Positions 7,365-59,383 of a stretch of DNA of 64,000 bases are shown here, one piece after another. The notes under the pieces are model-generated. The model saw only the letters and a list, made by a program, of their open reading frames with translations. It was not told the origin of the DNA and ran no database searches. Each line of letters begins with the position of its first letter. Within the stretch, counting starts at the first letter, position 1. The translations under genes and the position numbers were made by a program. Source of the stretch: Calothrix brevissima NIES-22 (GTDB lineage Bacteria > Cyanobacteriota > Cyanobacteriia > Cyanobacteriales > Nostocaceae); assembly GCF_002367995.1 (NCBI RefSeq), contig NZ_AP018207.1:3595083-3659082 (forward strand), read 5' to 3'.

Positions 7365-8573
7365 ATGAAGTTATCCTTAAAGCAGCTGGCCGTATATATA
7401 TCTTTACTGTTAATTGGTGGTGGTGCAGGTTTATTAGGCAGCCGTTATTTCCTGCCAAAAAGGTACTCTTTTCAGGAATTAACAAATGTCACAGCAGCTT
7501 TACCTCCAGAAACAGCAGCACCTAGTCCGGTTACCGGGCCTATAGGCGCAACTGGAGGCGATAATGTGAATTTTATTGCCACGGCTGTGCAAAAAGTCGG
7601 CCCGGCGGTGGTAAGAATTAATGCCACCCGTAAAGTAGCTAATCCAATTTCTGATGCTTTAAAAAATCCGCTATTGCGGCGATTTTTTGGCGAAGATGAG
7701 CAACCAATGCCGGAAGAGCGAATTGAACGCGGTACAGGTTCAGGATTTATCTTAAGTGCTAACGGCGAGTTATTAACTAATGCTCACGTAGTAGCTGATA
7801 CAGACACAGTACAAGTTACCCTCAAGGATGGTCGGTCATTTGAGGGTAAGGTTTTGGGTGTCGATGCGGTGACAGATGTGGCTGTAGTGAAAATTCCCGC
7901 GAGTAAATTACCTATTGTCAAATTAGGAAATTCGCAAAACTTGATTCCCGGTCAATGGGCGATCGCAATTGGCAATCCTTTGGGTTTAGATAATACTGTG
8001 ACAATTGGCATTATCAGCGCTACCGATCGCACTAGCGCTCAAGTTGGCGTTCCCGAAAAGCGAGTTAGCTTTATTCAAACTGACGCAGCAATCAACCCCG
8101 GGAACTCTGGCGGGCCTTTGCTCAACGCCCAAGGCGAGGTGATTGGTGTGAATACGGCGATTCGGGCTGATGCTCAAGGTTTGGGCTTTGCTATCCCTAT
8201 TGAAACTGCTGCTAGGATTGCGAATGAACTTTTTACCAAAGGGCGTGTCGAACATCCTTATTTGGGAGTGGAAATGACTGATTTAACTCCCACGAAAAAG
8301 CAGCAGATTAATCAAGAAAATCAGCTTAATATTCAGCAAGATGCTGGTGTTGTCATTAAAGGTACTCTGGATGATTCCCCAGCCAAACAAGCCGGACTAC
8401 TTCCTGGCGATGTAATTCAAAAAATTAACGGCAAGCCAGTTAAAACCTCGGCGCAAGTGCAGAGGCTAGTAGAGTCAAGCTCAGTGGGCGACATTCTCGA
8501 AATCGAAGTCAACCGCAACGGCAAAAGCCAAAGATTCAAAGTGCAATCAGGGGCTTATCCTCATAAGAAGTAG
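7365..8573 (+). CDS. HtrA/Deg-type periplasmic serine protease
   Basis: A 402-residue trypsin-like S1C protease with one PDZ domain. It has an N-terminal membrane anchor/signal (about 5-25). The triad is His141 (LTNAHVV), Asp171 (AVTDVAVVKI) and Ser248 (NPGNSGGPL). A PDZ domain follows from about 285 to the end, with GVVIKGTLDDSPAKQAGLLPG. Cyanobacteria have HtrA, HhoA and HhoB paralogues that degrade damaged envelope and lumenal proteins; I cannot assign which this is. The ATG at 7365 is preferred; a GTG at 7350 would add five residues. It is divergent from the M23 gene. Confidence 0.92.
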   Translation: MKLSLKQLAVYISLLLIGGGAGLLGSRYFLPKRYSFQELTNVTAALPPETAAPSPVTGPIGATGGDNVNFIATAVQKVGPAVVRINATRKVANPISDALKNPLLRRFFGEDEQPMPEERIERGTGSGFILSANGELLTNAHVVADTDTVQVTLKDGRSFEGKVLGVDAVTDVAVVKIPASKLPIVKLGNSQNLIPGQWAIAIGNPLGLDNTVTIGIISATDRTSAQVGVPEKRVSFIQTDAAINPGNSGGPLLNAQGEVIGVNTAIRADAQGLGFAIPIETAARIANELFTKGRVEHPYLGVEMTDLTPTKKQQINQENQLNIQQDAGVVIKGTLDDSPAKQAGLLPGDVIQKINGKPVKTSAQVQRLVESSSVGDILEIEVNRNGKSQRFKVQSGAYPHKK

Positions 8574-35250: not shown

Positions 35251-36050
<800 letters not shown>

Positions 36051-36080
36051 GAATTAGGCACTTCAATTATCCATCTCTGA

Positions 36081-36476
<396 letters not shown>

Positions 36477-36583
36477 GAATTAGGCACCTCAATTCTCAAT
36501 TTCTGAAGAGAGTTATTGATGGTGCAAAAAAGAAAGTAGCACAGTTAAGGGCAATTATTTTCCTTTACTGTCTACTCTTTGAA

Positions 36584-47171: not shown

Positions 47172-48362
47172 ATGAATAGACAAAAAATTGCTTATATTGC
47201 CTTTGATACAGTTCCCGCGCCTAAAGGTGCAGCTATTCATATCCAAGCTTTTTCTATTGCTTTAGCCACAGCTTTTGAAGATATTCATTTAATCACAGTT
47301 TCTCCTACAGCAACAGGTATAGATGCTCAAGAAATTTATCCACAAGTTAGACAAACTACATTCCCTGCTATCGGAGAGACTTTAATTCATAGAGTTTTAT
47401 ATTTTCGGAATTTACTCATAAGATGGTTAGCAGAAAGGCAATTTGAATCTATACATATACGTTCAATTTACGAAGGATATCCCATTGCTAGGAATAAACA
47501 GAAATATTGCGATCGCCTAATTTTTGAAGTTAACGGTTTACCGTCAATCGAGTTAAAATATCGCTATCCAGCCGTAGCTGAAGATAGAGAACTACTGCAT
47601 AAATTGTATTCTCAAGAGCAAATTTGTCTGGAAGCCGCCGATTTAATTATTACCCCCAGTAATATTACCAGCGAATATCTACAAACTCGTGGTATTTCTG
47701 TAGATAAAATCTGCGTAATTCCCAACGGCGTAGATTTAAAAATATTTACAAATGACCAAGGACAAATGACAAATGACAAACTAGAAATTATCTACTTTGG
47801 TACACTTTCACCTTGGCAAGGTGTAAATCTAGCCGTTGAAGCATTAGCCTTAATTAACCGAGAATTTCCCGCTAATTTAAAAGTTATTGGACAAGCTAGA
47901 GAATATCAAATTAAAGTATTAAAACAGCTAGCCCTAAAACTGGGAGTAGCAGATAAATTAACTATTTTAGAACCAATTTCTCAAACTCAATTGGTGAAAC
48001 ATATTCACACCAGTGATGTAATTTTCGCTCCTTTAATGCCAAGCGATCGCAATTTAGTTCAAGGTTGTTGTCCTTTAAAGATTTTAGAAGGGATGGCTAC
48101 AGGGATACCTGTAATTGCTAGCGATTTACCCGTAGTGAGAGAATTAGGAGAAGACGGAGTACATTTTTTATTAGTTAAGCCAGGTTCCGCCAAATCTCTC
48201 AAAGATGCCGTGTTAAGCTTGCAAAATGAGCCAGAACTAGCAACACAACTAGCGATAAACGCCCGTCAGCGAATTGAGGAGTATTATACTTGGCAAATTG
48301 CTGGCGAGGCTTTGATTAATGCTTATACAGAATTGGGAATCAACCGCGCCATTAAAGTTTGA
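47172..48362 (+). CDS. family 4 glycosyltransferase
   Basis: 396-residue GT-B enzyme: PAPKGAAIHIQAFSIAL N-terminal loop, VIPNGVDLKIF, IIYFGTLSPWQGVNLAVEAL and the EX7E-type KILEGMATGIPVIASDLPVVREL. Sugar and acceptor unknown. Between VDLKIFT and LEIIYFG it carries a short DQGQMTNDK insert encoded by a GACAAATGAC repeat (47755-47780), in frame. Its last 40 bp overlap the 3' end of the convergent glycosyltransferase. Confidence 0.85.
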   Translation: MNRQKIAYIAFDTVPAPKGAAIHIQAFSIALATAFEDIHLITVSPTATGIDAQEIYPQVRQTTFPAIGETLIHRVLYFRNLLIRWLAERQFESIHIRSIYEGYPIARNKQKYCDRLIFEVNGLPSIELKYRYPAVAEDRELLHKLYSQEQICLEAADLIITPSNITSEYLQTRGISVDKICVIPNGVDLKIFTNDQGQMTNDKLEIIYFGTLSPWQGVNLAVEALALINREFPANLKVIGQAREYQIKVLKQLALKLGVADKLTILEPISQTQLVKHIHTSDVIFAPLMPSDRNLVQGCCPLKILEGMATGIPVIASDLPVVRELGEDGVHFLLVKPGSAKSLKDAVLSLQNEPELATQLAINARQRIEEYYTWQIAGEALINAYTELGINRAIKV

Positions 48363-49519
48363 AGTTGCAACTTTTCCTGAGGTAGGGAATATTCAGTTAA
48401 AATGCGATCGCGTGCAGCTTGGCTAATGTGATTTTTCTCCTCATCACTTAACGTCAAATATTCCAATACCGCCTCACCTAGCTTGTGTAACTGCGAACGA
48501 GGTAGCAAAAAACCATTTTTACCATGTGTAATCACCTCTGGAATCCCACCCGCATCGCTGGCGATACAACTACAACCACAAGCCATTGCTTCTAACAAAG
48601 CATTTGGCATACCCTCCCACAATGAAGGCTGGAGATAAACATCACACAAGCGTAGATATTCAGCCACCGCCTCCAAATTTGGTAAATGTCCTGTGATAAT
48701 TATTCTTTGGGCATTTTCTGGCTGATTAGTTTTATACAATTGCAGCACAGACTCCTGAGAAGCCCTTACCTCACCAATAATTAACAAACAAGCAGGATGT
48801 ACTTGTCGAACTGTCGTTAAAGCATTCAATAAAAACTGCTGCCCTTTTTTCTCTCGTAATTCCCCACAGAATCCCAAAATCACCTCATCTGCTGCAATTC
48901 CCAAAGACTCCCTAGTAATTCCTTCCCCCCTCCTCGCTTGCGGGGAGGGGCTGGGGGTGGGGTTGTTCTGTGGTGAAAATATTTCTGTATCAACCGCATT
49001 TTTCAACACCAACACATCACCCCGCCCGCTAAGTAGCTGAATTTTGCGCGACATATCAGCACTTACCGCCGTAATCACCTTGGCGTGTTGTAGCGTCCAT
49101 TGCAAACGGGCAAAATCCCCCGGCGGAAACATTTCGCGATCAATATCATTACCACGGGCGCTAACTGTGCTTGCTAATCCTTGCAGCGCAGCAAACCAAG
49201 TAGCCAAAAAACCACTCGGAAACAAATAATGACCCCATACAGCATCATAATTATGAGCAGAATGTAACCATTCCAAAACATTTAATGTATGAGGCATCGT
49301 CATATCCCAATGACGATATAATCCTATGCGATAAACGCGAATATTTTTTTCTATAGTTTCCGGTGGTAAAACTTCACCTGGCTGTAAATAACGACTCCAA
49401 GTCACAACATCAATTTCCATCCCCAATTGCGAGAGTGTCCCCACCAGGCGAGTTGCACTCCTAGCCAAACCACCCAAATCTGGTGCAAATCTTTCTGTAA
49501 TTAAAAGCAGACGTGTCAT
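48323..49519 (-). CDS. family 4 glycosyltransferase with repeat-coded insert
   Basis: 398 residues: FAPDLGGLARSATRLVGTLS, LVLKNAVDTEIFSPQ, EVILGFCGELREKKGQQFLL and LWEGMPNALLEAMACGCSCIASDAGGIPEV are standard GT4 motifs. Residues NPTPSPSPQARRGEG after FSPQN are encoded by a GC-rich palindromic repeat (about 48919-48967; CCCTCCTCGC-TTGCGGGGAGGGG), inserted in frame between the two Rossmann domains, where a linker would tolerate it. Confidence 0.87.
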   Translation of the reverse strand: MTRLLLITERFAPDLGGLARSATRLVGTLSQLGMEIDVVTWSRYLQPGEVLPPETIEKNIRVYRIGLYRHWDMTMPHTLNVLEWLHSAHNYDAVWGHYLFPSGFLATWFAALQGLASTVSARGNDIDREMFPPGDFARLQWTLQHAKVITAVSADMSRKIQLLSGRGDVLVLKNAVDTEIFSPQNNPTPSPSPQARRGEGITRESLGIAADEVILGFCGELREKKGQQFLLNALTTVRQVHPACLLIIGEVRASQESVLQLYKTNQPENAQRIIITGHLPNLEAVAEYLRLCDVYLQPSLWEGMPNALLEAMACGCSCIASDAGGIPEVITHGKNGFLLPRSQLHKLGEAVLEYLTLSDEEKNHISQAARDRILTEYSLPQEKLQLQTLMARLIPNSV

Positions 49520-49592
49520 TACTGTTCTCTAGCTCATTTTCGCCTTGTGAGAAGTAATTATCTCTTAACAGAATGGGAGTAAAGTTTAACTT

Positions 49593-49740
49593 GGCGATCG
49601 CACTTCTCAAAACTACCAAAATGCGATAACTTCGTTAAGCTGCGCTAACGCACTTCTCAAAACTACCAAAACGAGAACGACTTTCGTGGCGCAAGCTTCG
49701 CACAATTCCCACAATCCACTAAATGCGATAGCTATTATTA
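49593..49740. repeat. small HIP1-unit cluster with inserted 22-bp element
   Basis: One unit GCGATCGCACTTCTCAAAAC (with ACTACCAAAAT) is followed by a second whose HIP1 core is split by AACTTCGTTAAGCTGCGCTAA. The same split unit exists at 50758 in the large array. A different short palindromic piece, TTTCGTGGCGCAAGCTTCGC, is at 49682. Confidence 0.7.
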
Positions 49741-49840
49741 ACTTTTGCTCTGCGTATTAGCCAATATGCTCGCTTTATATTGAAAAGGTTTACACCAACA
49801 TTATTTAGGTAGGGCGTAAGCAAAATATAGCTTTTTTGTA

Positions 49841-50176
49841 TTAAATAAACTCAAGATGTTGCCGCATTTCTTCGGGTTCTAATAATTCCCAAATCAATAC
49901 TAAGCTACGTATAATCTCTCCTATAGAAAGGCTTCCCTGGCTACAAAAGATTATACCAGTATGACTGGCACCTTGACTGTGGAGTCTTAAAAAATCTGTA
50001 TCTTGAGTAAAAATGACTCTTGATTGAGATAAGCAAAATGCTAATTGTTCTTCATCTGATGCAGAAATTAATCCTTGCTCAGGTGTAGTAGTTACATCTA
50101 TACCACGACGACGCAAAGCTTCTGCAATAATAATAGTTACATTCTCATCAAGATGAAATCGAATTGTTGCCAACAT
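49841..50176 (-). CDS. DUF5615 PIN-like protein (putative toxin)
   Basis: 111 residues, beginning IRFHLDENVTIIIAEALRRRG with conserved Asp, and IFTQDTDFLRL further on. This is the DUF5615 PIN-like pattern, inferred to be a nuclease toxin. Its start overlaps the 3' end of the DUF433 gene by 29 bp, the normal arrangement of this toxin-antitoxin pair. Confidence 0.85.
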   Translation of the reverse strand: MLATIRFHLDENVTIIIAEALRRRGIDVTTTPEQGLISASDEEQLAFCLSQSRVIFTQDTDFLRLHSQGASHTGIIFCSQGSLSIGEIIRSLVLIWELLEPEEMRQHLEFI

Positions 50177-50480
50177 CTCGATTTCCTATCTTTTGTTGAA
50201 GCTTAGAATATGTTTGTGTTTGCATTTGCTTTGCCAAGTCTTCGTCTTCCCTTATAGAAGCCCTAATTTCTTCTAAATTATCATGGTAGTAAGCCAATGC
50301 TGCATACACATCTGCTAAACTTATGCTTGGGTGTTGTGACACTATTTCATCTGGTGCAATTCCCAACCGTTCGTGCCAAATCACTACATCCTGTACAGTT
50401 ATGCGATGTCCGGCAATACGCGGTTTACCACCACATACTCCATGCGTAACTTCAATATGTTCCGAAATTACGGGAATCAT
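50148..50480 (-). CDS. DUF433 protein (putative antitoxin)
   Basis: 110 residues from the ATG at 50480 (MIPVISEHIEVTHGVCGGKP); 118 if the ATG at 50504 is used. KPRIAGHRITVQDVVIWHER and ISLADVYAALAYYHDNLEEI are DUF433 signatures: a small HTH-like protein usually paired with DUF5615. It probably represses the pair and neutralises the toxin. Confidence 0.87.
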   Translation of the reverse strand: MIPVISEHIEVTHGVCGGKPRIAGHRITVQDVVIWHERLGIAPDEIVSQHPSISLADVYAALAYYHDNLEEIRASIREDEDLAKQMQTQTYSKLQQKIGNRDVGNNSISS

Positions 50481-50730
50481 AGGTTTTACAAAATAAAATG
50501 GCATTAAGTTACTTTGAATAATACTATTTTAGCGAAAGCTTCTGAAGTTACAAAATTACCTTTGTATTTTGACTTAACTGGAATACTTTTGAAGAATATA
50601 GGAATCCGCTTTGATTACTGAAATTATTTGGGTAGGGAGGGAACTCTTAACAGGGAACAGGTAAGAAGGAATAAAAGTGTACTGAGTTTTTTTCAGAAAT
50701 CTATATAAATAAAAAAATATTTACATCAAT

Positions 50731-51260
50731 GCGATCGCACTCTCCAACAACCAAAAGGCGATAACTTCGTTAAGCTGCGCTAACGCATTCTTCAAAACTA
50801 CCAAAAGGCGATCGCATTCTTCAAAACTACCAAAAGGCGATCGCACTTCTCAAAACTACCAAAATGCGATCGCACTTCTCAAAACTACCAAAACGCGATC
50901 GCACTCCTCAAAACTGCTATATGCGTCACACTTCTCAAAACTACCAAAATGCGATCGCACTTCTCAAAACTACTAAAATGCGATCGCACTTTCCAAGAAC
51001 CAAAACGCGATCGCACTTCTCAACAACCAAAATGCGATCGCACTTCTCAAAAACTACCAAAATGCGATCGCACTTCTCAAAAACTACCAAAATGCGATCG
51101 CACTCCTTAAAATTACCAAAATGCGATCGCACTCCTTAAAATTACCAAAACGCGATCGCATTCTTCAAAAACCAAAACGCGATCGCACTTCTCAAAACTA
51201 CCTACATGCGATCGCACTCCTTAAAACTACTAAAATGCGATCGCCACTTCCGAAAATCAC
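50731..51260. repeat. HIP1-based tandem array, about 18 units of 27-30 bp
   Basis: Units of the form GCGATCGCACTTCTCAAAAC plus TACCAAAAT are repeated head to tail, with 16 exact GCGATCGC octamers in about 530 bp. Units differ by point changes and by 1-3 bp in length. One unit (50758-50786) has its octamer split by AACTTCGTTAAGCTGCGCTAA. Reading frames across it on both strands are pure repeat translation. It is not CRISPR: unit interiors are conserved, not unique spacers. Confidence 0.92.
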
Positions 51261-51299
51261 AACCTTTAGCCATAAGGCTTTTCATAAAACTTTCTCTCC

Positions 51300-54200
51300 T
51301 CATTTATTTGGGCAAATCTGCCGACGCAATTCATCGCGGGTAGCGAGGTAATCTTTGAGATAGTTGCAACCCTGCGCTAATAAATCATCCAAATCCAAAC
51401 TCCACAATTTGATAGCCTTGTCCGAACTTGCAGAAGCTAAGGTTTTGCCATCGGGACTAAATGCCACGCTTGTGACACCACTTTGATGACCAGTCAGTGA
51501 GGTAATTTCCTTCCCCGTGGCCACATCCCACAATTTGATAGCCTTGTCCGAACTTGCAGAAGCTAAGGTTTTGCCATCAGGACTAAATGCCACGCTTGTG
51601 ACACCACTTTGATGACCAGTCAGTGAGGTAATTTCCTTCCCGGTCGCCAGATTCCACAATTTGATGGTCTTGTCCCCACTTCCAGAAGCTAAGGTTTTAC
51701 CATCGGGACTAAATGCCACGCTTGTGACACCCTTTTGATGCCCAGTCAGGGTGTTAATTTCCTTCACCGTCACTACATTCCACAATTTGATGGTCTTGTC
51801 CCCACTCGCAGAAGCTAAGGTTTTGCCATCTGGACTAAATGTCACGCTTGTGACACCCTCTTGATGCCCAGTCAGGGTGTTAATTTCCTTTCCTGTCGCC
51901 ACATTCCACAATTTGATGGTCTTGTCCCCACTCGCAGAAGCTAAGGTTTTGCCATCTGGACTAAATGCCACGCTTGTGACATACTCTTGATGCCCAGTCA
52001 GGGTGTTAATTTCCTTTCCTGTCGCCACATTCCACAATTTGATGGTTTTGTCACTTGCAGAAGCTAAGGTTTTGCCATCTGGACTAAACGCGACACTTTC
52101 AGCGACACTTTTAACGGAAGCTTTATACTTGATGAAAGTGTAAATTTCACGGTCTGCGGCCAGATTCCACAACTTGACGATGTGTTCGCCAAGCATATTT
52201 TCACTACTCGCGGAAGCTAGGGTTTTGCCATCTGGACTAAACGCAACGCTATAGTCTCCATATTGATTCTCCCGGAAAGTGGAAATTCCTTCACTTGTAC
52301 TCAGATTCCACAATTTGACGGTTTTGTCCCCACTTCCAGAAGCTAAGGTTGTGCCATCTGGACTAAATACGATGCTATTGACCTCATAATGTCCCTGGAA
52401 AGTGTAAATTTCTTTGCCTGTTAGATCCCACAACCTGATGGTTTTGTCCCAACTTGCAGAAGCTAAGGTTGTGCTATCAGGACTGAAAGCGACGCTGTAG
52501 ACCAAAGATTGATGCCCCCGGAATGTGGAAACTTCTTTGCCTGTATTTAGATTCCACAACTTGATGGTATTGTCATTACTTGCAGAAGCTAAGGCTTTAC
52601 CATCTGGACTAAACGCGACGCTGTAGACCTCATTTTTATGCCCCCTGAAAGTGGAAATACCTTCACCTGTGTTCAGATTCCACAACTTGATGGTATTGTC
52701 ATTACTTGCAGAAGCTAAAGTTTTGCCATCTGGACTAAATGCCACGCTATTGACCCAACCTTGATGTCCCCAGAAGGTGTAAATTTCTTTGCCTGTAGTC
52801 AGATTCCACAACTTGATAGTTTTGTCAGCACTTGCAGAAGCTAAGGTTTTGCCATCTGGACTAAACGCGACGCTTTTGACTAAATCTTGATGCCCCCGGA
52901 AAGTGGAAATTTCTTTGCCTGTAGTCAGATTCCACAGCTTGATGGTGCTGTCTAAACTTGCGGAAACTAAGGTTTTGCCATCTGGACTGAAAGCGATGCT
53001 ACTAACCGAAGATTGATGCCCCCTGAAAGTAGAAATTTCTTTGCCTGTAGTTAGATTCCACAACTTGATGGTTTCGTCACTACTTGCGGAAGCTAAGGTT
53101 TTGCCATCTGGACTAAAGGCGACGCTCTCAACCTCATTTGTATGCCCCTCTAACTGATTACGTTCGCGGATGTTTAATAAAATCTCTAGTAGACTAAACA
53201 CTGGACTGTAAGCTGGATAATCAGCTAAATATTTACCTTTCACCAAACCTTTCAACTCCTGTGCAGCAGCCATTATTCCTGTTAAACTCTCAATTTCTTC
53301 TCCTCGGTAAAACTGACGCAATGCTCTGATTCCCTTCTGTTCTAACCCAGTAGCTGTCAAAGCATTTTGACGCTGTTCTTCTGCTGTTAGGCGTTGCTTT
53401 TCGGCTTTTTGTGCTTGTTTTTGCGCTTCTTGTTTTTGCTGTTGTGCTTGTTGTGATTGCTGAACAGCTATTTCCCGTTCTTTCTGGGCTATTTCTTTTT
53501 CTCGTAATGCTACTTGTTGTTGTTCCTTTATTGTTTCTAATTTATTTAAAGCAATTTGACGCGCATTTTCTGCGTTTCGACGCTGTTGTTGAATTGAACG
53601 TATTTGCTGCTCTGCTTGTTGTTTGTCTCCCTGTGCTTGTGTCACTGCTTGCTTCAAATTATTTTCGCTTTGTGTCAGTTGTTGAACTTCTTTGGTTCTT
53701 AGTGCTACTTCCTGAATTTGTTGATTTAATTGTCGATCAAGATTGTTCAAATTATCTTTTGTAATCTTTTCTTTATCTTCTGCTATTTTAACATTTTGGT
53801 TTGCTGTCACAAGTTCTTGATTCGCCCAATTTGCAAAAATCAATGCTCCAATAGCCCCAATTATCGAAATAACAAGCACAATCAAACCAATGCGAATTCT
53901 TTGATTTGTCTTTTTCTCCACATCTGTCAATCGCAGCTTTGCTTTTTCTTCTTCCTTCAAAGCTTGATTTTGTTTGGTTTCCGCTTTTGCAACCCTCTGA
54001 TTTAACTCTGCTTCCACACTCGCAGATAAAAACCGATAATCAGCATCACTCAAACTTTTTCCATTAGCCCAAACACGAGCTTTTTCTAAATCTTCCGAAT
54101 GTAATAAATAAGAACTATCCTGACATTGACTTTTTAACCAAGCGTTAAAATTATCAGCATAAGGACGCAATTTATTTAACTCTGTCTCAACCCAACTTAA

Positions 54201-55310
54201 ATTAAAAACATCCCGATAAACGAGATTATAAACCTTTAACCTTTCCTGTTGCTCTACTACCAATCCAGTCAAACGCAACCTCATTTTTTCTGGACTACCA
54301 TCAACAGCAATCTCTCCCTCTTGCAAAATTTGCTGATACAAACCCAACAAACTAGCAGCAAATTTATCGTCAGTTACAATCCTTTTCCTTATAGTTCTTA
54401 AATGCTCTGGTTCATCTAAGGATTCCCAGTTATCAATAATTTGCTTTCTGACAACTTTTCCCACCCAATCTAAAGCATTTGGCTCTGGGGTGTAACATTC
54501 TGAATATACAGATAATTCTTGTAATAATAAATTACAAAGTTTCTGCGTTAAAAAAGGTTGTCCGCCAGTCCAACTTAAAACACATTTCATCACTTGTTGA
54601 ATGTTGCTGACTTTTACCTTCAATCCTTCAGCTAAGGGTGCGATTTCCTCTTCCTTAAAACCATTAAGTTGAACTGCTCGACCAATATTAAAAGGCGTTC
54701 GTTTTTTATCATCAATCAAATCACTGGGAGTCGCTACACCCAGTAAAGCAAAGGTCAAACGATTAAAATCTGGATTTAAAGCACGCTTTTCATAACAACT
54801 TCTAATCAGAGCAAAAAAATCATTTGAGTGACGAAATTTTAAATTTAAACTTAAAATACTATCGATTTCATCAATAAAAATAATAATCTTTCCCTTGACA
54901 TTTGGCAGCATTACCTCATCCAAAAATGAACCAAATCGCTGCACGGGAGGTAATTGAATACGTTTATCCCACCAAATAAATAATTCTTCAGGTGGAGATA
55001 AAACTTGTAGTTGATTTACCAAGATGTAAGCAATACCCGCATACCATTGATCGAGGTTGCTTTCCAGACTGCTTTCATCACTACCAATTTCAGTTAAATC
55101 AATCTTCGCACAAGCAAAACCTTCTGTTTGCAATCGTTTCATTGTCCGAGTCAACAAACTGGTTTTACCCATTTGTCGGGAGTTAAATACAAAACAAAAC
55201 TCCCCCGCTTTCAACCACTGATAAAATTCTGTGTCGGCTTTCCTAAATACATAACTGGGGGCATTTTCTGGTAAACTCCCACCAACCTTGTACTCATAAT
55301 CTCCCGTCAT
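51300..55310 (-). CDS. AAA-like ATPase with TM helix, coiled coil and 14 WD40 repeats
   Basis: 1336 residues. 1-380: AAA-like domain with Walker A RQMGKTS (45-51) and Walker [11 protein letters not shown] (141-150). 472-494: a transmembrane helix. 500-660: a long Gln/Glu/Lys coiled coil. 720-1305: fourteen WD40 units, enough for two seven-bladed propellers, then a C-terminal [16 protein letters not shown] motif. Units 10-14 are nearly identical ([15 protein letters not shown]), indicating recent expansion. It probably senses through the propeller and signals through the ATPase (STAND-like). No Shine-Dalgarno; an IS begins 10 bp before the start codon. Confidence 0.9.
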
Positions 55311-55319
55311 AATTTACTG

Positions 55320-56817
55320 GAGTTTAGACTAAATGGGAGAGATGAAAGAGAAAAAGGGGATGTCTGATTGAAGACAGTCCCCCTTTCGGCAGAAGCTAAG
55401 AGAGAATCACCTACTCTTATCTGCCAATATGAAACGTGCCAGACTCGAAGAATTTCGTCAAGCCGCCTATACGCATCTAGGCAAAGCACATGATGCAACA
55501 TTTGAACTAACAGATGCGATACTGTTGACCCGTAATGTCTACAGTCTGGCAGATTTATCTTTATCGCCAGTGTTTAGACGTAAATGGCCGAGTATCTATG
55601 AAGCGATACAAGATACCAAACCAGACCGTGAGAAATTAATGGAGTTATATATCAAGCAAATACCAACAGAAAAACGCATATTGTTGGCAGGAGACCATAC
55701 AGCTTGGTCACGCCCAGATGCGGTGACACTCAAAGAACGGACAATAGAACACAGTAGCACAGCGATCGCGGGAAATAAACCGATTACGATTGGGCAGGGA
55801 TATAGTACTATAGCTTGGATACCAGAGGATTCAGGAAGTTGGGCACTACCGCTGAGGCATGAACGGATTACCAGTTGGGACAATCCGATTGAGAAAGCAG
55901 TTGAACAACTCAAAAAGGTATGTGAATCAATGTCTGTTCGACCAATTTCGCTTTGGGACAGTGAATATGGTTGTGCGCCTTTCGTATTAAAGACAGCTAG
56001 TATAAAAGCCGATATCTTAGTTAGACTGCGTTCAAATCTGTGTCTATGGGGCGCACCACCTGCTTACTCTGGCAAGGGTCGTCCTCGCAAGCATGGTGCT
56101 CAATTTAAACTCAATGAACCCTCAACCTGGGGCGAAGTGGCATCTGTGCTGGAAGTAAATGACCCAAAATTGGGACGAGTTAAAGTCAGTCTGTGGGAAG
56201 ATTTGCATTTTCGCAAAGCTGCTGCACGCCCAATGATGCTACTGAAGGTGGAACGTCTTGATCTTGATGGCAATTTGAGAGTATTAAGACCCTTGTGGTT
56301 GGCTTGGGTTGGGGAACAAATGCCACCATTGGATGAAGTTTGGCGATTGTACTTGCGCCGATTCACGATTGACCATTGGTATCGTTTTCTTAAGCAACGC
56401 TTACATTGGACAGTACCAAAATTCAGTACTCCAGAACAATGTGAACATTGGAGTGACTTAATGCCGTTAATCACTTGGGAGTTATGGTTAGCTTGTGATA
56501 TCGTTGCTGATAATCCTCTTCCTTGGCAGAAGTCAATGGATAAATTGACCCCAGGACGAGTTGCTCAAGCTATGGGTGGAGTTTTCGCCGCGATTGGTAC
56601 TCCTACCTCTCCACCCAAACCTCGTGGAAAGTCCCTTGGGTGGACACCAGGTAAAGTCCGTAACCGGAAAATACGATATCCAATTGTTAAAAAGACTGCT
56701 TCTAAACCACGCAAAGAGGAACAAAAATCTGCTTAATCTCAAATATCTTCATTCTTGAAGGTTGTGTTTTATTAACTCAGCACTGCTGGGTCATTTGTTG
56801 CTGTCTAGTCTAAACTC
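55320..56817 (+). mobile_element. IS701-like insertion sequence (1498 bp)
   Basis: Terminal inverted repeats GAGTTTAGACTA (55320-55331) and TAGTCTAAACTC (56806-56817), 12 bp perfect, enclose one intact transposase gene. Pairing stops outside both ends. Flanking bases ACTG (left) and AAAA (right) do not form a target duplication. Family assigned from transposase resemblance. Confidence 0.8.
55429..56736 (+). CDS. IS701-like DDE transposase
   Basis: 435 residues, apparently intact. Likely catalytic Asp in LLAGDHTAW and LWDSEYG, and a late Y-x2-R-like motif in WYRFLKQRLHW. Basic C-terminus (KKTASKPRKEEQKSA). It resembles full-length IS701-type transposases common in cyanobacteria. It is transcribed away from the WD40 gene. 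Confidence 0.88.
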   Translation: MKRARLEEFRQAAYTHLGKAHDATFELTDAILLTRNVYSLADLSLSPVFRRKWPSIYEAIQDTKPDREKLMELYIKQIPTEKRILLAGDHTAWSRPDAVTLKERTIEHSSTAIAGNKPITIGQGYSTIAWIPEDSGSWALPLRHERITSWDNPIEKAVEQLKKVCESMSVRPISLWDSEYGCAPFVLKTASIKADILVRLRSNLCLWGAPPAYSGKGRPRKHGAQFKLNEPSTWGEVASVLEVNDPKLGRVKVSLWEDLHFRKAAARPMMLLKVERLDLDGNLRVLRPLWLAWVGEQMPPLDEVWRLYLRRFTIDHWYRFLKQRLHWTVPKFSTPEQCEHWSDLMPLITWELWLACDIVADNPLPWQKSMDKLTPGRVAQAMGGVFAAIGTPTSPPKPRGKSLGWTPGKVRNRKIRYPIVKKTASKPRKEEQKSA

Positions 56818-56865
56818 AAAAATTTATCCACAAAAATAAAAAAGATATTGAGAACTAGATCCCCT

Positions 56866-56898
56866 AGATCCCCGACTTCTTCAAGAAGTCGGGGATCT
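56866..56898. repeat. 16-bp-arm palindrome (AGATCCCCGACTTCTT)
   Basis: AGATCCCCGACTTCTT, one C, then its exact complement. It lies between the IS and the HTH-AAA gene. Could be a dispersed repeat or, as RNA, a very stable hairpin. Confidence 0.7.
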
Positions 56899-57051
56899 GA
56901 ATCGAGTGAGTTTGTATTAAACAGCTATATCACCTGAGTTAAGCCAAGAGAATATCGAGTATCGATTGACTTACCATCGACTTGTTCTTGACTTTACAAC
57001 AAAAAGCCTTTTCCTTTAAGCTAAATTGCGTAGCTGTTTTCACCATACGCC

Positions 57052-58431
57052 ATGCCTCGCTCAGTAGTACTACGCGATGAAAAATGCCAACAAAAGGTTT
57101 TAGACCGTTACCACGGGCAATACTGTAGTCAGAAAGATTTAGGCGAATATTTAGGAGGAATGGCTCAAAGTACGGTTAGTAAGTTTCTCAATATGCAACC
57201 TGTTGACCGTGAGAAATTTATCCAGATTTGTGCAGCTTTGGGTATAGAAGATTGGCGAAGCGTTGGTATCCCCTACAGAAAGCCAACAGCTAACACAGAA
57301 AATAGCAATTCTGCGGAATTAGGAGAATCAGAGGAATCAGAGAAACAAGAAAAAATTCCCACCTTATTCACCCCATTACCTATGAGCGCTCTAGAATATC
57401 CAGACGGAGAACAACTAGCACTAAATTCCAGTTTTTACGTCCAGCGTCCCCCCGTAGAACAGCAATGTTTTGAAGAAATTAGCAAACCTGCTGCACTGAT
57501 TTGTATTAAAGCTCCCCAAAAAATGGGGAAATCTTCCCTGCTAGCGCGAATTATTCAACAAGCGAAAAATCAAGGTGATGCGACGGTAATTATGAACTTT
57601 GAGCTAGGGGAAAAGGAATTTCTCAGCGACTTGAGTACATTTTTACGCTGGGTTTGCGATCGCATCATCTTAGAATTGACCAAAGATCATCTCGAATTAG
57701 CTACCGAACTACTAGAAAAATTAGACGAGCATTGGAAATTGGCTCCCCGCATTGGTAGTAAACTGGCTGTCAAATATTACCTAGAGCGATATCTACTTCC
57801 CAAAATTAATCAACCCCTCACCTTAGCACTGGAAGAAGTAGATAGATTATTTGAGTATCCAGGTATTTACAAAGACTTTTTTGGACTATTGCGTTCTCTC
57901 CATCAAGAGGGAAGACAACAAGAAATCTGGAAAAAACTCCGCTTAGTGGTAGTACATTCCACGGAAGCCTATGTACCAATGGATATCAACCAATCCCCAT
58001 TTAATGTAGGTTTACCCATAGAATTACCAGAATTTACCCCCGCACAAATCCTCGATTTAGCCCAACGTCACCAACTGGAATGGACTAATACAGAAGTTGA
58101 GCAATTGCGAGATATGATTGGCGGACATCCTTATTTAGTGCGTCTGGCTTTGTATAAAATAGCTTGTGGTGAGATAACCTTATCTCGTTTTTTGGAAACA
58201 GCATCCACCCCATCAGGGATTTTCAGCAATCATTTGCGTCATCTTAGCTTAATTTTGACAGAGCAACAGGAACTAGGCGCAGCGATGAAAGAGATTATAA
58301 ATACTAATAAACCAGGAAAATTCAGCGATGCAGTCAGGTATAAATTAATAGCGCTGGGTTTAGTAAATCTGTTAAATGACGAAGTGATCATACGTTGCAA
58401 GCTATATCGCCAATATTTTCAGAATTTTTAG
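57052..58431 (+). CDS. HTH plus AAA-like ATPase protein
   Basis: 459 residues. 1-75: helix-turn-helix (YCSQKDLGEYLGGMAQSTVSKFL). Acidic linker 80-105. 120-400: AAA-like domain with Walker A QKMGKSS (156-162) and Walker B-like LTLALEEVD (256-263), plus IGGHPYLVRLALY. The C-terminal part is a winged-helix-like segment. Same AAA-like class as the 51300-55310 protein, in divergent orientation with an IS between them. Role is unknown; signalling or regulatory function is inferred. Confidence 0.83.
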   Translation: MPRSVVLRDEKCQQKVLDRYHGQYCSQKDLGEYLGGMAQSTVSKFLNMQPVDREKFIQICAALGIEDWRSVGIPYRKPTANTENSNSAELGESEESEKQEKIPTLFTPLPMSALEYPDGEQLALNSSFYVQRPPVEQQCFEEISKPAALICIKAPQKMGKSSLLARIIQQAKNQGDATVIMNFELGEKEFLSDLSTFLRWVCDRIILELTKDHLELATELLEKLDEHWKLAPRIGSKLAVKYYLERYLLPKINQPLTLALEEVDRLFEYPGIYKDFFGLLRSLHQEGRQQEIWKKLRLVVVHSTEAYVPMDINQSPFNVGLPIELPEFTPAQILDLAQRHQLEWTNTEVEQLRDMIGGHPYLVRLALYKIACGEITLSRFLETASTPSGIFSNHLRHLSLILTEQQELGAAMKEIINTNKPGKFSDAVRYKLIALGLVNLLNDEVIIRCKLYRQYFQNF

Positions 58432-58538
58432 AAAGTTATATAGATACTCAATAAAAGTCGTTAATCGCGCGATTTTCTTTGGGTATAACTCAGATACAGC
58501 TAGGGATACTAGGATTGTCGAGTTAAACAGACAATCCC

Positions 58539-59171
58539 ATGTTACCAACAATCAGCAAATTCAACAGATTATTTCTCGCTGCTTCAATTTCACTATCAGC
58601 AGTAACATTCAATAGCCCCAAAGTAGATGCAATCATCAGCCAAAACCTCAATCTAACCGAATTATCCACATCAACTGGCATCTACACACAGACTAGCACT
58701 GAAGATATTGCAACTGCATCAGAATGGAAAGAATTCTCTCCCGATGAAGGTCAATCCTCTATTCTCATGCCAAATGGTGACATCTCAGACATGACACCAG
58801 ATAAAAGCGAGATGCATGAGGGTGTTGAGTCTACAAAAATGTATCTGAGTCTTCATGGCACAGATGTGTATATGGTTAGCTATGCCGACTTTAAAAATGA
58901 TGTGACTCAAATTTCCTCAAGTGAATTATTAAATTCTGCTCTAGAAGGAATGTTAGGGGATGAGAAACAATTACTCAGCGAGGAAAGTATTAATTTAGGT
59001 GCATATCCTGGTAAAGAAATTAAGCTGTGGGATGAAAAAGAAAAAATGACTTGGACGGGGAGAATTTTTATTGTTAACCAACGGATGTATATGCTCTTGG
59101 TTGTCAGCGATCAAAATCCACAAGTCAGTGATATTAGAAAGTTTTTTGACTCTTTCCAATTGATTCAATAG
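58539..59171 (+). CDS. exported protein of unknown function
   Basis: 210 residues. N-terminal signal-like segment (FNRLFLAASISLSAVTF). The mature part has WKEFSPDEGQSSILMPNGDI, YPGKEIKLWDEKEKMTWTGR and ends VSDIRKFFDSFQLIQ, a pattern seen in several cyanobacterial periplasmic proteins. Function not recognised. It is followed by a hairpin. Confidence 0.72.
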   Translation: MLPTISKFNRLFLAASISLSAVTFNSPKVDAIISQNLNLTELSTSTGIYTQTSTEDIATASEWKEFSPDEGQSSILMPNGDISDMTPDKSEMHEGVESTKMYLSLHGTDVYMVSYADFKNDVTQISSSELLNSALEGMLGDEKQLLSEESINLGAYPGKEIKLWDEKEKMTWTGRIFIVNQRMYMLLVVSDQNPQVSDIRKFFDSFQLIQ

Positions 59172-59201
59172 TCATCAAATTACGGAAAATTGGCGCGGGA
59201 G

Positions 59202-59224
59202 GGGACACAGCACTGCTGTGTCCC
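59202..59224 (+). terminator. 10-bp stem hairpin after the exported-protein gene
   Basis: GGGACACAGC-ACT-GCTGTGTCCC, 30 bp past the stop. No T-run follows, so it may instead be a dispersed palindrome. Confidence 0.5.
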
Positions 59225-59383
59225 TACGATATATGTAGTTTTAAAAACCATGCATATTTAGTATTTCCTGGCGTAACTCTTAAAGGCTATAAATTAGGAA
59301 GTGCGATCGCTCTACCCGCATCAATCACAAGGGAATGAGGGAACAAGGAGGATAAGAGAGAAAAATGCCCCATGCCCAATAAC

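Follow-up and report, generated by a model that had tools for sequence, protein, structure and literature searches.

Why should the octamer HIP1, whose function has long puzzled cyanobacterial genomics, be repeated head to tail at one place in the genome of Calothrix brevissima NIES-22? A sequence-only reading of the 64,000-nucleotide stretch analysed here (the window) had pointed to a tandem HIP1 array in its last quarter. The array proved real: 16 exact copies of GCGATCGC lie at 50731-51244 on the plus strand, which is the C-rich strand of the array, at the claimed step of 27-30 bp and with G-poor spacers between them. Of the 15 steps, all measure 27, 29 or 30 bp apart from two double steps (77 and 56 bp); inside these are a HIP1 interrupted by a 21-nt insert (50758..50786, +; SDR5-like by the description given in PMC4390886) and a degraded unit reading GCGTCAC (50923..50929, +). 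The claimed extent was slightly generous, its end at 51260 lying a little beyond the last HIP1 at 51244. For 50784-51244 Tandem Repeats Finder (TRF) reported a period of 29 bp, 16.1 copies and a score of 502; the 29-bp period, as opposed to one of 7 bp, led us to reject a heptamer repeat of the STRR type.

HIP1 occurs 82 times in the window against a mean of 0.30 in shuffles, and the 66 copies outside the array agree with the background of about one per kilobase from which the array had been said to depart. The main-array unit itself, at three or fewer mismatches, has 10 matches in the whole 9.26 Mb genome, all at the array locus, including two in a sister mini-array (49594-49679); no other place in the genome matched the unit.

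Within the array, HIP1 has been kept better than what lies between its copies. With units located by their spacers, the 16 intact octamers hold 0 substitutions in 128 positions, against 26 substitutions, and indels besides, over some 360 positions of the 18 spacers (Fisher P = 4e-4), in a count that is biased in favour of HIP1, as the degraded and split copies stand outside the 128. This difference speaks against the reading that the array is a neutral minisatellite, grown by slippage where a plastic island tolerates long intergenic DNA and having no role of its own, in islands where toxin-antitoxin (TA) genes are also common and where illegitimate or homologous recombination of the ordinary kind joins cassettes. 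Other features suit such neutral growth: neighbouring units are identical in places, which points to local duplication, and neighbouring HIP1 copies can pair as 9-bp stems in single strand, a pairing that follows from a repeated palindrome and could aid slippage. Taken with the counts of breakpoints and neighbouring genes given below, we regard neutral growth as a doubtful account of the locus, albeit a serious one. The selfish repeat that the sequence-only reading suggested may likewise have expanded here.

The sister mini-array (49594..49679, +) comprises one exact HIP1 and one HIP1 split at 49623-49651 by a 21-nt insert as in the main array, together with main-array spacer, and is a direct repeat of 50731-50814 (87% identity over 86 columns). 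Between the two arrays, and so inside direct repeats, sits a DUF5615/DUF433 gene pair, with a WD40-repeat protein of 1336 aa (51300..55310, -) on the far side of the main array; these are the neighbours that the sequence-only reading had named. The DUF5615 protein (49841..50176, -) is a putative toxin with weak PIN-like matches, and the DUF433 protein (50148..50504, -) is a putative antitoxin whose gene overlaps that of DUF5615, the two products being of 118 and 111 aa. Both domains are of unknown function in Pfam; we treat the two genes as a putative type II toxin-antitoxin pair, which may be a working one. DNA at 49698..50531 containing the pair forms a cassette common to an island of another genus (L088 in genome G027), with 90% DNA identity. 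In the gap between DUF433 and the main array, about 105 bp (50596-50701) resemble stretches of Nostoc, Trichormus and Brasilonema plasmids at 73-92% identity, mostly in places that carry no annotated feature, and may be a mobile-element remnant.

To see what this site looks like in related strains, we followed its flanks through seven congeners. The glycosyltransferase gene flanking the mini-array (48323..49519, -) is the conserved left flank of the site and is present in 7/7. In G003, G005 and G006 just 0.6-0.8 kb, containing neither a HIP1 unit nor a cassette, separates it from the next conserved gene; in C. brevissima (G000) about 9.8 kb (49520..59374) lies between the same conserved flanks and contains a DDE_5 transposase gene and the WD40 gene as well as both arrays with DUF433/DUF5615 between them. 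In G007 the left flank is followed by a HIP1 unit, then by HicB and HicA, and a further two HIP1 precede the conserved right flank. The left flank of G002 leads to two HIP1, a 69-aa ORF with no Pfam match and a PIN toxin before its contig ends, and in G001 the left flank is followed by a unit, a piece matching the HicBA edge and then other DNA; the contig of G004 stops inside the intergenic region and is uninformative. On this comparison one orthologous site carries different cassettes in different congeners, with a HIP1 unit at the edge in G007, G002, G001 and G000. The site would be a cassette hotspot because flanking units in direct orientation would permit the loss, gain and replacement of what lies between them.

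The PIN toxin of G002 (L142:9288-9764) has 159 aa and that of G027 (L088:9684-10070) 129 aa; the DNA homology common to them stops near the C-terminus.

Near-identical cassettes also sit, by alignment, in unrelated surroundings in other genera. The DUF433/DUF5615 cassette was found over its whole length (49740-50530) at 99% identity in G263, 94% in G176 and 91% in G027; the PIN cassette at 96% in G252 and G246; and HicBA at 97-98% in G233, G242 and G195. Relatives of all three lie within about 3.5 kb of one another, beside HIP1 arrays, in G027, which belongs to another genus and in which HicBA is partial. Carriage on phages was rejected, as 49590-51250 had no match in a phage collection, and so was carriage on plasmids, where matches in 10 records were all partial and fell short of 80% of the query.

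Whole or split HIP1 often stands where this homology ends; examples are HicBA compared with G233 and G242, at its right edge, and the PIN cassette compared with G252, at its left edge. Across 52 breakpoints, taken from the 26 of 87 fetched cassette loci that passed thresholds of 84% identity and 350 bp, a HIP1 carrying no more than one mismatch lay within 60 bp in 22 cases, against 10.6% of random positions and 8.6% of random intergenic positions; for exact HIP1 the count was 15/52 against 7.7% and 6.5%. The binomial P of 4e-9 is overstated, since the breakpoints are dependent and copies carry the junctions of their source. That breakpoints lie closer to HIP1 than random intergenic positions do is a second point against a neutral minisatellite, while the 30/52 breakpoints with no HIP1 within 60 bp are what neutral growth and ordinary recombination would lead one to expect. 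A recombination hotspot had been among the functions suggested for the array; comparison supports it, as cassettes differ at the site and the ends of homology lie near HIP1 in excess of random positions.

In a related observation, L094 (G051) and L160 (G263) have a common right flank after HIP1 units, preceded by an antitoxin-/toxin-like pair in one and by DUF433/DUF5615 in the other. G051 also holds several HIP1 split by the insert found in the window arrays.

The same comparisons bear on a reading in which the array organises DNA or serves as a methylation platform, its dense GATC/CGATCG binding a protein or concentrating methylation with the TA genes as bystanders. The array does offer 16 potential CGATCG sites in 0.5 kb, and a CRISPR array of Synechocystis 6803 is reported in PMC6604393 to be densely CGATCG-methylated. 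Such a platform, however, predicts neither varied cassettes at one site nor common cassettes that end near HIP1, and we consider it improbable. That CRISPR1 array is like the present one in having HIP1-bearing repeats and many CGATCG in tandem, as described in PMC6604393, and differs in that the spacers of the window array are diverged copies of each other; with all of them aligning to one consensus and none unique, we rejected a CRISPR array.

How unusual is the array? It had been presented as an oddity, and it does mark an unusual spot, but it is one of a class of arrays that occurs throughout the order. As a DNA query, the main array matched 86/148 genomes at an E-value of 0.001, many of the matches being short, and at least one run of three close HIP1 was found in 78/98 genomes, many of these runs not being regular arrays. 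C. brevissima itself has other regular HIP1-cored arrays with different spacers (C1:5116979-5117215, 6818550-6818639 and 1888769-1890289). Of 40 stretches fetched, L093, L094, L107, L108, L109, L115 and L116 showed no chain of three exact HIP1 and were left out. Composition was counted over 52 arrays with 221 spacers, in which a period of 28 bp is the most frequent. On the C-rich strand, which was chosen before the bases were counted, 172 of 4791 bases are G, and 125 of the 221 spacers are without any G, a poverty in G that is partly selected for because the loci were picked by DNA similarity to the main array, which favours similar spacers.

Arrays within one island share a common orientation in 10 of 11 multi-array islands (L085 being entered as two arrays and L103 left out). 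Arrays in the same direction favour loss and gain over inversion, though copying of one array within an island would give the same pattern. Relative to flanking genes, the orientation of the C-rich strand is mixed in the 52 arrays. This goes against the array being a transcribed regulatory or antitoxin-like RNA of the adjacent genes, as do the variation of unit length within arrays and a sole Rfam match of 21.2 bits against a cut-off of 54 bits. In favour of an RNA, each strand forms a more stable fold than shuffled sequence does (z = -6.0 and -5.3), as repeated palindromes would. With the Rfam match so far under the cut-off and gene orientation mixed, we rejected an RNA element and consider a transcribed function very improbable.

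Several of these arrays have features of their own. In L090 (G007), L096 (G003) and L102 (G002), units of 26 bp are mixed with units of 39-40 bp; their copy numbers differ (8, 7 and 10 HIP1, respectively), they adjoin similar small genes, and no recognised toxin was found beside the arrays in these three congeners. L084 has five arrays in a single orientation alternating with small genes, among them a PIN gene at 7910-8350 and others that by eye resemble XisH/XisI and an RHH-PIN pair. At a second site of the C. brevissima genome (L105), arrays were found in G000 only; over the 1.0-1.5 kb examined in each of the seven congeners, three HIP1 in a run were never seen. That comparison shows strain specificity and no exchange, as the adjacent DNA also differs in congeners; because of that difference, L105 provides no empty site.

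We asked which genes accompany HIP1 arrays at 33 loci (28 of relatives, four of G000 and the window). A gene of a named toxin family (PIN, ParE, BrnT or PemK) lies within 1 kb of an array at 20/33, in a count of one candidate per locus, chosen by eye and then scanned. DUF5615 or DUF3368 lies within 1 kb at three further loci (L091, L106 and the window); the domains are of unknown function in Pfam, and the genes are putative TA members, with which toxin-type genes stand beside about two thirds of the loci. No toxin-type gene was found within 1 kb at the remaining 10/33 (L086, L090, L096, L100, L101, L102, L103, L104, L114 and L119), a number that may include a missed toxin since small ORFs of L096, L100, L101 and L102 entered the pooled scan only and none are listed for L104 and L114. 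L122 has a chain of three HIP1 and was left out of the neighbour counts; counting it as lacking gives 23/34. Those 10 loci without a recognised toxin are consistent with a minisatellite that grows neutrally beside whatever genes are there.

Pooled scans gave a broader view. Among 104 ORFs (70-200 aa) lying no more than 1 kb from the arrays of the 28 relatives' loci, without the four own-genome loci and the window, Pfam matches were to PIN (16), ParE (9), DUF5615 (4), BrnT (4), BrnA (3), Phd/YefM (3), XisH (2), UPF0150 (2) and PemK (2), one ORF being able to match more than one family. None of these families was among the 25 commonest of 82 in 104 control ORFs taken from 13 arbitrarily chosen stretches of these genomes, and 44 ORFs near heptamer arrays yielded one PIN, whose position identifies it as belonging to a TA island with degenerate HIP1 units (L083); the scans cover the 25 commonest of 71 (near), 82 (control) and 59 (heptamer) families, so rarer TA members are possibly hidden in the controls. 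With NCBIfam, nearly all of 19 families in the near set are TA families, and no TA family was among the 25 commonest of 273 in the control set. PIN matches number 436 in about 104 Mb of 14 genomes, from which 0.43 would be expected near the 44 arrays of the relatives' 28 loci, rising to 1.1 if the densest of the 14 is taken; these genomes overlap the 28 loci only partly and the E-value scale differs. The controls for the TA association are thus the pooled ORFs and the genome-wide PIN density, and the 20/33 locus count stands without a per-locus baseline. One PIN in 44 small ORFs near heptamer arrays against 16 in 104 near HIP1 arrays argues against a neutral minisatellite; TA genes and arrays could also both merely gather in plastic islands. 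The array, the direct repeats and the TA association are shown by DNA comparison.

Several known systems resemble the locus in part. Integron and superintegron cassettes include TA genes. The likeness lies in small cassettes, repeats between them and exchange between strains; here, by contrast, the boundary is a HIP1 minisatellite, the cassettes include whole TA pairs in either direction, and no integrase exceeded the cut-off (TIGR02249, 0/9 genomes, with weak matches in 9/9), on which ground an integron was rejected. The heptamer (STRR) tandem repeats of heterocystous cyanobacteria are likewise intergenic and occur in the same genomes, but their unit is of 7 bp and lacks a HIP1 core, and small ORFs beside them show little TA signal. 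HIP1/SDR5, compared by description only, has the HIP1 core in common with the arrays, where a 21-nt insert, perhaps SDR5-like, splits HIP1 at 50758-50786 and 49623-49651, SDR5 being reported in PMC4390886 to insert precisely inside HIP1; it differs from the present tandem arrays, with their related G-poor spacers, beside gene cassettes, and the words tandem and array are absent from the main text of PMC4390886. No paper turned up by our literature searches describes, in its title or the opening of its abstract, HIP1 arrays at TA cassettes.

HIP1 arrays look like boundaries where small gene cassettes swap, and we think it probable that the array in the window is the boundary element of an exchangeable TA-type cassette, similar to an integrase-free cassette platform. 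A HIP1-centred unit would have been amplified in tandem via slippage or unequal recombination, the spacer drifting while the HIP1 core was kept; with units in direct orientation on either side of a small cassette, recombination at or near HIP1 could then lead to its loss, gain or replacement. Exchange, whose direction we infer, would come about through recombination of one unit with another or through cuts made at HIP1, probably with an enzyme and under selection, and may benefit the host; neither an enzyme nor an excised form was seen. Counting against this reading are the 10/33 loci with no toxin-type gene, the 30/52 breakpoints with no HIP1 within 60 bp and the mixed orientation of arrays relative to genes. 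Some evidence ties HIP1 to site-specific recombination and none to homologous recombination, according to PMC4390886.

Tentatively, and as a possibility that we would not yet bet on, filamentous cyanobacteria may have an integrase-independent cassette system: HIP1-cored minisatellites, favoured by selection as recombination platforms, would capture and stack TA cassettes and pass them between strains and genera in exchange for others. If true, such a system gives HIP1 a role in genome exchange, and the link could explain how TA genes spread through these organisms without an integron integrase; were HIP1 arrays repeatably linked to the exchange of cassettes, a role in recombination could be tested directly.

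Other repeats are also present in the window: 7-bp tandem arrays are numerous and occur in many places, and 35677-36522 consists of a 426-bp unit in two tandem copies with 89% matches.
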